A stretch of 64,000 bases of DNA from NCBI RefSeq assembly GCF_026342405.1, contig NZ_JAPEMU010000001.1:496001-560000 (forward strand), given 5' to 3'. This document shows, piece after piece, positions 27,810 through 31,375 of this stretch (position 1 is the stretch's first letter; every line of letters starts with the position of its first letter). The DNA comes from Kitasatospora sp. NBC_00240. GTDB taxonomy: Bacteria > Actinomycetota > Actinomycetes > Streptomycetales > Streptomycetaceae. The notes under the pieces were generated by a model that worked only from the letters and a program-made list of their open reading frames with translations, did no database searches and was not told the origin of the DNA. The translations under genes were made by a program, and so were the position numbers.

Positions 27810-27857
27810 GGCGCTCCCGGCAGCCCCCTCAGTCGCGGTCCGGCCCGGCAGCCCCCA

Positions 27858-27902
27858 AGCCGGGTTCCGGCCCGGCCCGGGCGGTGGGGCCGGAACCCGG
27901 CT
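27858..27902. terminator. Perfect 16-bp hairpin between convergent genes
   Basis: AGCCGGGTTCCGGCCC pairs fully with GGGCCGGAACCCGGCT around a 13-base loop. Confidence 0.88.
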
Positions 27903-27915
27903 CCTCATCGGCCAT

Positions 27916-28893
27916 CTAGCGCAGCAGGGCCTCCACTTCGGCGAACTCGACTGCGGGCAGCGGGCCGTGGGCGAGGGTACCGAGGTTCTCCTCGACCTGG
28001 GCGACGGTCCGGCAGCCGGGGATGGGGATGACGGCGTCGGTGCGGGCCAGCAGCCAGGCCAGAGCGCCCTGCGCGAGGGTGCGGCCGTTGCCGGTCAGCA
28101 CCTCGCGGACGGCGTCGATGCGGGACAGCCACTCCGGATCGCCCGCGCCGTCCTGGCCGAAGTAGGGGATCCACCGGTGGCCCTGGGCGCGGACGTCGTC
28201 GGAGGCCACCCGGCGGCCGCCGTGGTACTTGCCGGAGAGCAGGCCCATGGCCAGCGGGCCGCGCGCGACGGAGGCCAGGCCCGACGCCTCCACCACCGCC
28301 ACCATCTCCGGCGCCGGGTTGAGCACCGAGCAGTCGTGCTGGATCGCCGCGCAACTCGGGGCCGCCTCGGCGAAACCGGCGGCGTTGGCGGCGTCGTCGG
28401 TGGACCAGGCGTAGGCGCGGATCTTGCCCGCCGTCACCAACTCCTCAAGGGTGTCGACCAGGTCGAGGGCGGTGGCCAACGGGGCGTCGGAGATGTGGAA
28501 CTGGTAGAGGTCGAGGTAGTCGGTGCCGAGGCGGCGCAGGCTGCCCTCGACAGCGGTGCGCAGGTAGGCCGGGGTGGCGTCCTGGCCGGTGGCCTCGCCG
28601 GTGGTCTCGTCGAAGGTGTTGCCCCACTTGGTGGCGATCACCACCTGGTCGCGACGGCCGGCGAAGGCCCGGCCGAGGACCTTCTCGCTGTGTCCCGCCC
28701 CGTAGTTGGAGGCGGTGTCGAAGAAGGTCGCGCCCAGGTCGAAGGCTCGGTGGAGGGCTGCGGTCGACTCGTCGTCGTCCACCGCGCCCCAGCCGAACTG
28801 CTCCGCGCCGGCGTGCAGCGGGCCGCCGATGGCCCAGCAGCCCACGCCTATCGCGCTGACCTCGATGCCGGTGCTGCCCAGAGTGCGGTTCAT
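27916..28893 (-). CDS. Aldo/keto reductase under MerR control
   Basis: A 325-residue NADPH-dependent reductase of the large AKR group. The tetrad is D59 and Y64 in FFDTASNYGAGHSEKV, K89 in VVIATKWGN and H133 in LYQFHISDAP. The C-terminal cofactor segment is AVIPIPGCRTVAQVEENLG. The first ATG overlaps the merR stop as ATGA, but GGGAGA sits seven bases before the second ATG (MNRTLGS), which I take as the start. The two genes form one operon read from a MerR-type promoter. The inducer is unknown; reductases under such MerR regulators are often detoxifying. Confidence 0.9.
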   Translation of the reverse strand: MNRTLGSTGIEVSAIGVGCWAIGGPLHAGAEQFGWGAVDDDESTAALHRAFDLGATFFDTASNYGAGHSEKVLGRAFAGRRDQVVIATKWGNTFDETTGEATGQDATPAYLRTAVEGSLRRLGTDYLDLYQFHISDAPLATALDLVDTLEELVTAGKIRAYAWSTDDAANAAGFAEAAPSCAAIQHDCSVLNPAPEMVAVVEASGLASVARGPLAMGLLSGKYHGGRRVASDDVRAQGHRWIPYFGQDGAGDPEWLSRIDAVREVLTGNGRTLAQGALAWLLARTDAVIPIPGCRTVAQVEENLGTLAHGPLPAVEFAEVEALLR

Positions 28894-28895
28894 GG

Positions 28896-29276
28896 TCATT
28901 CTCCCGGTCGGATGTGGATCTGCGCCTGGTACCAGGCGATCTTCTCTGCCAAGTGCTGCTGCTGGCGCCGAAGTTCGGCGATGGTCTGCTCCACGCGGGC
29001 GGCGTGCTCGGTGAGCAGCTCCAGCCGCTCGGCGAGCGTGGCGTCGCCCTCGCGGGCGGAGTCGGCGTACCGCTGCATCTCGGCGATGGGCATGCCGGTG
29101 TCCCGCAGGCAGCGCAGCACGCCCAGCCAGTCGAGGTGGTTCTCGTTGAACTGCCGCCTGCCGCCCACGGTTCGGTCGATCCGGTCGAGCAGGCCGATGC
29201 GCTCGTAGTAGCGCAGGGTGTCGATGCTGAAGCCGGACCGTTCCACGACCTCAGCGGGGGAGAGTGTGTCCGCCAT
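28896..29276 (-). CDS. MerR-family regulator, probably leaderless and self-regulating
   Basis: A 126-residue activator. The winged HTH is textbook MerR: VVERSGFSIDTLRYYERIGL, LDRIDRTVGGRRQFNENHLD and LGVLRCLRDTGMPIAEMQRY. A C-terminal dimerisation coiled coil follows (AARVEQTIAELRRQQQHLAE). No cysteines typical of metal sensors are present, so it likely senses an organic compound, as in aldehyde- or drug-responsive MerR proteins. There is no ribosome binding site. The -10 of its promoter ends seven bases before the ATG, so transcription should begin at or next to the start codon. The stop overlaps the next gene. Confidence 0.92.
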   Translation of the reverse strand: MADTLSPAEVVERSGFSIDTLRYYERIGLLDRIDRTVGGRRQFNENHLDWLGVLRCLRDTGMPIAEMQRYADSAREGDATLAERLELLTEHAARVEQTIAELRRQQQHLAEKIAWYQAQIHIRPGE

Positions 29277-29282
29277 GCGACC

Positions 29283-29313
29283 ACCGTCGCAGCTGGAGTG
29301 CGCTCCAGGTCAA
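29283..29313 (-). promoter_or_regulatory. MerR-type promoter with 19-bp spacer and CTGGAG-N4-CTCCAG operator
   Basis: On the minus strand TTGACC (29313-29308), exactly 19 bases and GACGGT (29288-29283). The overlong spacer contains the perfect inverted repeat CTGGAGCGCACTCCAG. This is the classic architecture that MerR proteins untwist on activation. Confidence 0.88.
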
Positions 29314-29471
29314 GCCCGGATCGGGAAGCGGCGCCCGGTCGGATCGCGGTGGCCGGTCTGGCCGCGGTGCCCTGCCTGGCAGCGGTGCCCCGCCTGGTCG
29401 CGGCGGCCGTTCGCACGCGGATGTGGACGAGGCGGCGGGTGCACCGGATCGCCGTTCCGGCGCACCCGCTC

Positions 29472-29669
29472 TCACAGCCGCCGGGGCCCGGCGCCGTCCT
29501 CGGCGAGCGCATCGCCGGGGTTCAGCAACGCGCATGCCTTCATCGAGAGACATCCGCAGCCGTAGAACCGCAGCGCGGAGACCGCTGCCCCGGTCCGCGC
29601 GCTCATCTCGCCGATGCTCAGCCAGTCGTCCGGGGTGGCCCGGGCGCCGCCAGGGTGATAGCTCGTCAT
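29472..29669 (-). CDS. 65-residue SoxR with an internal deletion (mini-SoxR)
   Basis: The protein joins the start of the SoxR winged helix (LSIGEMSARTGAAVSALRFY, residues 17-36) directly to the C-terminal iron-sulfur tail (GCGCLSMKACALLNPGD, residues 37-53) and ends GAGPRRL. In SoxR these parts are separated by about 85 residues carrying the wing and the dimerisation helix; here they are fused in frame. The cluster motif C-X2-C-X-C-X5-C keeps three of its four cysteines (C38, C40, C46); the first is lost at the junction. The ribosome binding site AAGGAGG, at seven bases, is excellent. It cannot bind DNA as SoxR does. It is divergent from a ferredoxin gene across an intact SoxR box. Confidence 0.8.
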   Translation of the reverse strand: MTSYHPGGARATPDDWLSIGEMSARTGAAVSALRFYGCGCLSMKACALLNPGDALAEDGAGPRRL

Positions 29670-29683
29670 GCGGGGCCTCCTTG

Positions 29684-29714
29684 TTGACCTCAAGCTTACT
29701 TGAGGCCCTACGGT
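29684..29714 (+). promoter_or_regulatory. SoxR box in a 19-bp-spacer promoter of the ferredoxin gene
   Basis: TTGACC (29684-29689), exactly 19 bases and TACGGT (29709-29714). The spacer holds the perfect inverted repeat CCTCAAG-CTTA-CTTGAGG (29688-29705), which matches the SoxR operator of actinobacteria. The site and promoter appear undamaged although the adjacent soxR is deleted internally. Confidence 0.85.
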
Positions 29715-29765: not shown

Positions 29766-30089
29766 ATGACTTTTGTGATCGCCCTGCCCTGCGTGGACGT
29801 CAAGGACAAGGCATGCATCGACGAGTGCCCCCTCGACTGCATCTACGAGGGAGAGCGCATGCTCTACATCAACCCGGACGAATGCATCGACTGCGGCGCC
29901 TGCGAACCGGCGTGCCCCGTCGAGGCGATCCTCTTCGAGGACGACACCCCGGAGGAATGGAAGCACTTCACCGCCGTGAACGCCGAGTTCTTCGCCGACC
30001 TCGGCTCCCCCGGCAGCAGCGCGAAGCTCGGCCCGATCGGCAAGGACCATCCGATCGTGGCAGCGCTGCCGCCCCAGGGCGCCGGATGA
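29766..30089 (+). CDS. Seven-iron (3Fe-4S/4Fe-4S) ferredoxin
   Basis: A 107-residue soluble electron carrier of the FdxA type. Eight cysteines are arranged as C9, C17, C21, C25 and the tight ECIDCGACEPACPVEAI cluster (C40, C43, C46, C50). The C-terminal extension (EEWKHFTAVNAEFFADLGSP) is the helical part found in actinobacterial ferredoxins of this size. The ATG lies about 45 bases after the predicted start point of the SoxR-type promoter, so redox-active compounds should induce it. It probably supplies electrons to a cytochrome P450 or other oxidoreductase elsewhere in the genome. Confidence 0.93.
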   Translation: MTFVIALPCVDVKDKACIDECPLDCIYEGERMLYINPDECIDCGACEPACPVEAILFEDDTPEEWKHFTAVNAEFFADLGSPGSSAKLGPIGKDHPIVAALPPQGAG

Positions 30090-30156: not shown

Positions 30157-30396
30157 TCAGTTCATCTGCCCAAACAGGTCGGCGACTTCCGCGAACGCCC
30201 TCTCCCCCGCCGCGGCGGCAGCGGGAGAGAGGGTGTCGAGGGTGAGGAATCCGTGGACCATGTCGGCCTCGCAACGGTGGCCGACCCGAACGTCCGCGGC
30301 GGCCAGCCGGGCGGCGTACGCGTCGCCCTCGTCCCGAAGCGGATCGTGCTCAGCGGTGATCACGACGGCGGGCGCAACCTCATCAGGAACCTTCAC
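30157..30396 (-). pseudogene. C-terminal remnant of an alpha/beta-hydrolase_3 gene
   Basis: The 79 codons encode only the last part of a hormone-sensitive-lipase-like hydrolase. The catalytic Asp region is AVVITAEHDPLRDEGDAYAA and the catalytic His is in EADMVHGFLTLD, followed by the usual final helix. The nucleophile Ser and the N-terminal 230 residues are absent. Its GTG lies two codons after the stop of the AraC-type gene with GGAG nearly touching it, so it could still be translated as a tail of that transcript. Confidence 0.75.
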
Positions 30397-30400
30397 ACTC

Positions 30401-31375
30401 CTACGGCGTCGGCGGTGCCGGGCGGCTCCGGAACTGGCGACGGTACGTCGAGGGGCTGACGCCCATCGCCTCCCGGAAGTGGTGGCGGAAGCCCGCGACG
30501 GTCAGGCCCACCCGGCCGGCCACCGCTTCGATCGGCGTGTCCGCGGACTCCAGCAGGACGGCACCGGCCCGGATCCTCTGCTGGGTGACCCAGCGCCCCG
30601 GCGGCAGACCGGCCACGTCGGCGAATCGGCGTTCGAACTGCCGCACCGACAGGTGCGCGACCTCGGCCAGTTCGTCGACGGCGAGACGCCGGTGCAGGTT
30701 CTCCGACGCGTACCGGATGACCTTGCCGATCGGGTCGTCCGACGGCGCCCTGTCCACCGGGTGCTCCGCGAACTGTGCCTGGCCGCCCTCGCGGTGGGCG
30801 GCCACGACCATCCGGCGGGCCACGCGAGCGGCGACATCGGCGCCGTGGTCGGTGCGGACGAGGTGCAGGCAGACGTCGATGCCGGCGGCGGTTCCGGCCG
30901 CGGTGACGACCGATCCGTGGTCGACGTAGAGCACCGACGCGTCGACCTTCACCGCCGGGTGGCGTTCCTGGAGCAGCCGGGCGTACCGCCAGTGCGTGGT
31001 CGCCTCCTTCCCGTCCAGCAGCCCCGCGGCGGCCAGGGCGAACGCGCCGCTGCAGATGGACACCACCCGCGCCCCTCGTCCGTGCGCATCCCGCAGCGCG
31101 TCCAGGACCTTCGGCGAGACGTCGCGGCGCACGTCCGCGACCCCGGGGACGATGACGGTGTCGGCGTACCGGAGCCGGTCCAGACCGTGGTGCACCACGA
31201 TGTCGAAGCCGCCCACGACGCGGTGCGGCCCGGGTGTCTCGGCGCACAGCTCGAACCCGTACCACCAGTCCACGTCCAGCTCCGGCCGGGGGACCGCGAA
31301 GACCTCCGCGACCGTGGAGAGCTCGAAGGGGGCCATCCCGTCGAAGGCCAGGCAGGCGATCCGGTGGCGACGCAT
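30401..31375 (-). CDS. GlxA-type AraC regulator with amidase-like N-domain
   Basis: A 324-residue transcription factor. Residues 5-190 form a DJ-1/PfpI-like domain with the Cys elbow VVSICSGAFALAAAGLLDG and ATTHWRYARLLQERHP. Residues 215-320 are two AraC HTH motifs (LAVDELAEVAHLSVRQFERR and IEAVAGRVGLTVAGFRHHFR). Such regulators (GlxA/FtrA) sense nitrogen compounds. It is divergent from a stand-alone PfpI-type protein gene, its probable target, across a short inverted repeat. The stop is immediately followed by a hydrolase remnant. Confidence 0.92.
   Translation of the reverse strand: MRRHRIACLAFDGMAPFELSTVAEVFAVPRPELDVDWWYGFELCAETPGPHRVVGGFDIVVHHGLDRLRYADTVIVPGVADVRRDVSPKVLDALRDAHGRGARVVSICSGAFALAAAGLLDGKEATTHWRYARLLQERHPAVKVDASVLYVDHGSVVTAAGTAAGIDVCLHLVRTDHGADVAARVARRMVVAAHREGGQAQFAEHPVDRAPSDDPIGKVIRYASENLHRRLAVDELAEVAHLSVRQFERRFADVAGLPPGRWVTQQRIRAGAVLLESADTPIEAVAGRVGLTVAGFRHHFREAMGVSPSTYRRQFRSRPAPPTP

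Follow-up and report, generated by a model that had tools for sequence, protein, structure and literature searches.

A probable deletion remnant of soxR beside an intact SoxR box and ferredoxin gene in Kitasatospora sp. NBC_00240

Gene content and promoter of the locus

The window, i.e. the whole stretch of 64,000 nucleotides analysed here, contains a 65-codon soxR remnant (mini-soxR) that is divergent from an intact ferredoxin gene, fdxA. The features of the locus are the following, G015 being a relative of the same genus and C1:142 kb the position of a second soxR-fdxA unit in the genome.

29472-29669, minus strand: mini-soxR, 65-codon soxR remnant, recognised by profile search and by alignments with the paralogue and G015
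29475-29561, minus strand: retained C-terminal part, 29 codons (GCGCLSMKAC...RRL), with three of the four cluster cysteines
29561-29562, minus strand: deletion junction with a 2-bp microhomology (CG), where codons 37-125 have been lost from the 154-aa parent
29562-29669, minus strand: retained N-terminal part, 36 codons (leader and HTH helices 1 and 2, to FY)
29684-29714, plus strand: fdxA promoter (TTGACC, 19-nt spacer, TACGGT); the C1:142 kb copy and G015 have the same sequence
29688-29705, no strand assigned: perfect SoxR box, CCTCAAGCTTACTTGAGG
29766-30089, plus strand: fdxA, intact 107-aa actinobacterial 7Fe-type ferredoxin (NF045480, 180.6 bits against a cut-off of 125)
30157-30396, minus strand: truncated alpha/beta-hydrolase gene, lacking by deletion about 0.8 kb that G015 has, the family being judged from sequence without profile search
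30401-31375, minus strand: araC-type regulator gene, intact in the window as in G015 but disrupted in the C1:142 kb copy

The SoxR box sits inside the 19-nt spacer of the divergent fdxA promoter, exactly where the original prediction had placed a perfect operator, and its position, a dyad at the centre of a long spacer (19-20 bp) that separates -35 from -10, marks this as a putative SoxR-controlled promoter. Only two perfect SoxR boxes occur in the 10.4-Mb genome, one in the window and one in the C1:142 kb unit, and the box-in-spacer promoter, searched for as a strict pattern, is kept in 18 other genomes of the genus. The sigma-70 scan covers spacers of 16-18 nt, and the fdxA promoter with its 19 nt lies outside this reach. 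Gene conversion from the 142-kb copy was considered as the source of the identical promoter and rejected, since G015 has the same sequence. For the coding region of fdxA, Ks against the G015 orthologue is approximately 0.16, compared with approximately 0.05 for the flanking araC and merR genes, and the window fdxA has runs of sites in common with the 142-kb copy; this pattern may reflect patchy gene conversion of one fdxA copy by the other.

The translation of mini-soxR (65 aa) reads MTSYHPGGARATPDDWLSIGEMSARTGAAVSALRFY up to the deletion junction and GCGCLSMKACALLNPGDALAEDGAGPRRL beyond it. Residues 1-36 correspond to the start of SoxR (to ...SALRFY) and the last 29 to its tail (GCGCLSMKAC...GPRRL), the latter being identical to the intact SoxR of the paralogue in the same genome. 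The NCBIfam SoxR model TIGR01950 matches in two stretches (E 1.1e-12, 48 bits, below the curated cut-off of 116.9 bits), and half of the Pfam MerR model is matched. This resemblance is no chance likeness, and descent from soxR is established by the intact syntenic orthologue in G015, to which 194 of the 198 retained nucleotides, stop codon included, are identical. The start codon and the reading frame are intact, with AAGGAGG 6 nt before the ATG. Thus, the strong ribosome binding site ascribed to the 65-codon gene in the original prediction is present, as are the first part of the winged helix (HTH helices 1 and 2) and three of the four cluster cysteines, the first cysteine of CX2CXCX5C (the equivalent of E. 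coli Cys119) being deleted. Because mini-SoxR scores below the cut-off, departs from the four-cysteine motif and has an incomplete domain content, it is not filed here as a SoxR protein.

The 267-bp deletion and the parts it removed

Compared with both the paralogue of its own genome and G015, mini-soxR lacks exactly 267 bp (89 codons), in frame. BLAST of the window against the 142-kb copy returned two pieces offset by 267 bp and overlapping by 2 bp, from which it follows that exactly 89 codons were lost and that the microhomology at the junction is 2 bp; beyond these two bases ('CG'), the breakpoints have no repeat in common. The in-frame internal deletion of soxR that had been predicted is therefore confirmed against the syntenic intact orthologue in G015, as is the loss of middle residues itself, with the predicted number of about 85 replaced by the 89 codons of the alignments with the paralogue and G015.

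The deleted codons 37-125 correspond to residues 32-120 of E. coli SoxR in an alignment with PDB 2ZHG. While the HTH start and the GCGCLS..C tail of mini-SoxR are those of SoxR (TIGR01950; 2ZHG), the wing and the remainder of the DNA-binding domain are gone, as are helices 3-5, including the dimerisation helix alpha5, and the Cys119 equivalent; neither a complete winged HTH nor a dimerisation helix is left. The intact genes of relatives in the genus encode complete SoxR proteins with CX2CXCX5C. The structure model of the intact paralogue (mean pLDDT 79) shows a confident wing strand (53-55) and confident helices at 58-71, 75-84 and 93-121 (the last of 29 residues), all of which fall inside the deleted part, and the fold predicted for mini-SoxR is of low confidence (mean pLDDT 54), without a wing and without the 29-residue helix. 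SoxR acts as a homodimer via helix alpha5 and requires four cysteines (PMC8063818, PMC4146615), the requirement of CX2CXCX5C for the cluster having been demonstrated in E. coli, P. aeruginosa and S. coelicolor (PMC4146615). Considering this published need for four cysteines and the loss of the wing, alpha5 and Cys119, mini-SoxR is unlikely to be a stable DNA-binding or cluster-binding product.

The other soxR genes of the genome and of its relatives

The genome contains an intact soxR elsewhere, as the original prediction had thought worth looking for. It belongs to the second soxR-fdxA unit (C1:142403-143287), in which soxR (C1:142403-142867) is full-length with 154 aa. Window and 142-kb unit are 94.6% identical from the N-terminal part of soxR to fdxA, 97.8% identical in the soxR tail and 100% identical in the core promoter, and the operator in the soxR-fdxA intergenic region at 142 kb is the same as the box of the window. 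Beyond codon 9, the 142-kb soxR differs from the G015 soxR by 20 synonymous and 0 non-synonymous changes, which argues that the 142-kb SoxR is under purifying selection and kept as a working protein.

A third, clearly different SoxR is encoded at C1:7.17 Mb beside a transketolase gene; in S. avermitilis, too, a SoxR site has been reported at a transketolase gene (PMC4146615). As a full member of TIGR01950 (188.6 bits), and given that SoxR proteins bind similar operators (PMC4146615), this third protein rather than the 142-kb paralogue might control the window fdxA. We regard this as unlikely, as the third soxR has its own promoter, divergent from the transketolase gene and with a different palindrome, ACTTGAAGCGGGCTTCAAGT (L029 4160-4200; G000:C1:7.172 Mb), whereas the 142-kb paralogue is a near-identical protein with an identical operator.

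In G015, a full 154-aa soxR stands at the same place, with the gene order pyrOx-akr-merR-soxR-fdxA-araC-dj1 and synteny on both sides. The retained part of mini-soxR differs from it in four codons (two synonymous, two not), too few to separate relaxed selection from constraint. Val22Met was weighed as evidence of relaxed selection but rejected, as Met is common at this position in Microbacteriaceae-type SoxR. At least 21 other genomes of the genus have both soxR halves separated by the 267-bp stretch, the spacing being read from match coordinates (G006, G010-G013, G017, G020, G024, G028-G030, G035, G037, G040, G042, G043, G062, G063, G066 and G067, as well as G058 for a more distant SoxR). Following the suggestion in the original prediction that relatives might carry the same short form, a protein search of the genus relatives found none, and the exact junction pattern matched only the window among 70 genomes of the genus and had no match in species-level contigs of approximately 85,000 species, a collection that may omit the window's own species. 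As is expected of a deletion pseudogene, relatives thus have an intact gene at this position and the short form is not conserved, and the deletion is most likely recent and confined to its own lineage, judging from these comparisons. Loss of soxR does happen in the genus, as in G008 (L195 1046-1486) a stop codon interrupts a soxR of this type; there, the distance from half to half is 3 bp shorter, and the fetched 3 kb contain no fdxA.

The window stretch is losing DNA, since another deletion, about 0.8 kb long, has truncated the adjoining hydrolase gene just beyond fdxA, of which only the end is left and which G015 still has. The araC neighbour of the 142-kb unit is likewise no longer intact, indicating that DNA is being lost in both copies. 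This araC is frameshifted and cut (L028 7461-8102; G000:C1:143460-144101), and the two units are mirror images of each other, the window having araC intact and soxR broken and the 142-kb unit araC broken and soxR intact. On the other side of mini-soxR, the aldo-keto reductase and merR pair (window 27852-29338) has a 97.6% identical inverted copy at C1:9,224,181-9,225,665, which stops before mini-soxR.

Control of fdxA and the soxR-fdxA unit in Actinomycetota

Taken together, the short ORF is very probably a recent, lineage-specific deletion pseudogene of the soxR divergent from fdxA, control of fdxA having passed to the 142-kb SoxR. An ordinary soxR would once have stood divergent from fdxA in the window, and a 267-bp deletion at the 2-bp microhomology would have cut out the wing with the remaining DNA-binding domain, and also the dimerisation helix and the first of the cluster cysteines, while the operator and fdxA were retained, the in-frame outcome being presumably a one-in-three accident. 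In the putative order of events, the second copy came first and the deletion later, after the window soxR had become dispensable. The intact paralogous SoxR (C1:142403-142867) would then have taken over the window fdxA and the leftover soxR promoter in trans, and the small protein would be inactive. Small in-frame deletions in duplicated genes are a familiar source of bacterial pseudogenes, and mini-soxR, a clean 2-bp-microhomology deletion in one of two paralogous units, is alike and shows no notable difference. It adds one instance to a well-known kind, in which a deletion leaves a remnant in one unit of a paralogous pair.

What the comparisons show directly is the deletion itself, an orthologue in synteny and a paralogue that are both intact, operators that match exactly, and no short form in the other genomes searched. 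It is simplest to suppose that both fdxA genes are under the control of the second SoxR. The original prediction had offered control of the ferredoxin by another SoxR as one of two outcomes, and the intact paralogue with its identical operator favours this outcome, the control itself being what we infer. Trans action of the second SoxR on fdxA is most likely what made the soxR deletion tolerable. In streptomycetes, the boxes on which SoxR normally acts lie apart from its own gene, as is also the case in the S. coelicolor regulon, whose six known targets include no ferredoxin, unlike the window with its fdxA (PMC4146615).

The other predicted outcome, a small protein acting in trans through heterodimers or cluster scavenging, would require that mini-SoxR is made and either binds iron or a cluster through its three cysteines or interferes with full-length SoxR. 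The open frame, the good ribosome binding site and the C-terminal 29 residues identical to intact SoxR speak for such a role; however, without dimerisation helix, wing and Cys119, with all four cysteines of CX2CXCX5C needed for the cluster (PMC4146615, PMC8063818), with a predicted fold of low confidence and with the short form in no other genome searched, a functional mini-SoxR finds no support here and is very unlikely. Equally improbable is that the deletion is an assembly artefact and that the strain has a full soxR at this place. Two genome copies at 95% identity can confuse short-read assembly, yet the junction sequence occurs in neither the 142-kb copy nor any relative, the breakpoints share no repeat beyond 2 bp and the window's contig measures 9.38 Mb; in addition, what is left of the gene is more similar to the syntenic G015 orthologue than to the paralogue, and mini-soxR is therefore no chimera of the latter. 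Least probable of all is that a 65-residue protein expressed from the SoxR-box promoter modulates the full-length paralogue or holds iron, as a microprotein that arose when a MerR-family sensor lost its interior.

If the remnant is a deletion pseudogene, as we consider very probable, it has little importance beyond annotation, where the 65-codon ORF should not be called SoxR and the window fdxA could be listed as a putative target of the C1:142 kb SoxR.

The window has the same gene pair, spacing and SoxR box as the divergent soxR-fdxA unit of Actinomycetota and differs from it in the internal deletion of soxR. In the species-level contig collection, fdxA is divergent within 400 bp in 62 of the 80 best SoxR loci (L115-L194), mostly with a box, and these 62 loci range from Kitasatospora to Microbacterium, Clavibacter and Agromyces. 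Our literature search found nothing on point for soxR-fdxA pairs or for truncated SoxR. Since the divergent pair with its SoxR box is so widespread, the 7Fe ferredoxin is a probable SoxR target in Actinomycetota, and a ferredoxin under such control might serve as an electron donor that re-reduces, i.e. resets, SoxR.
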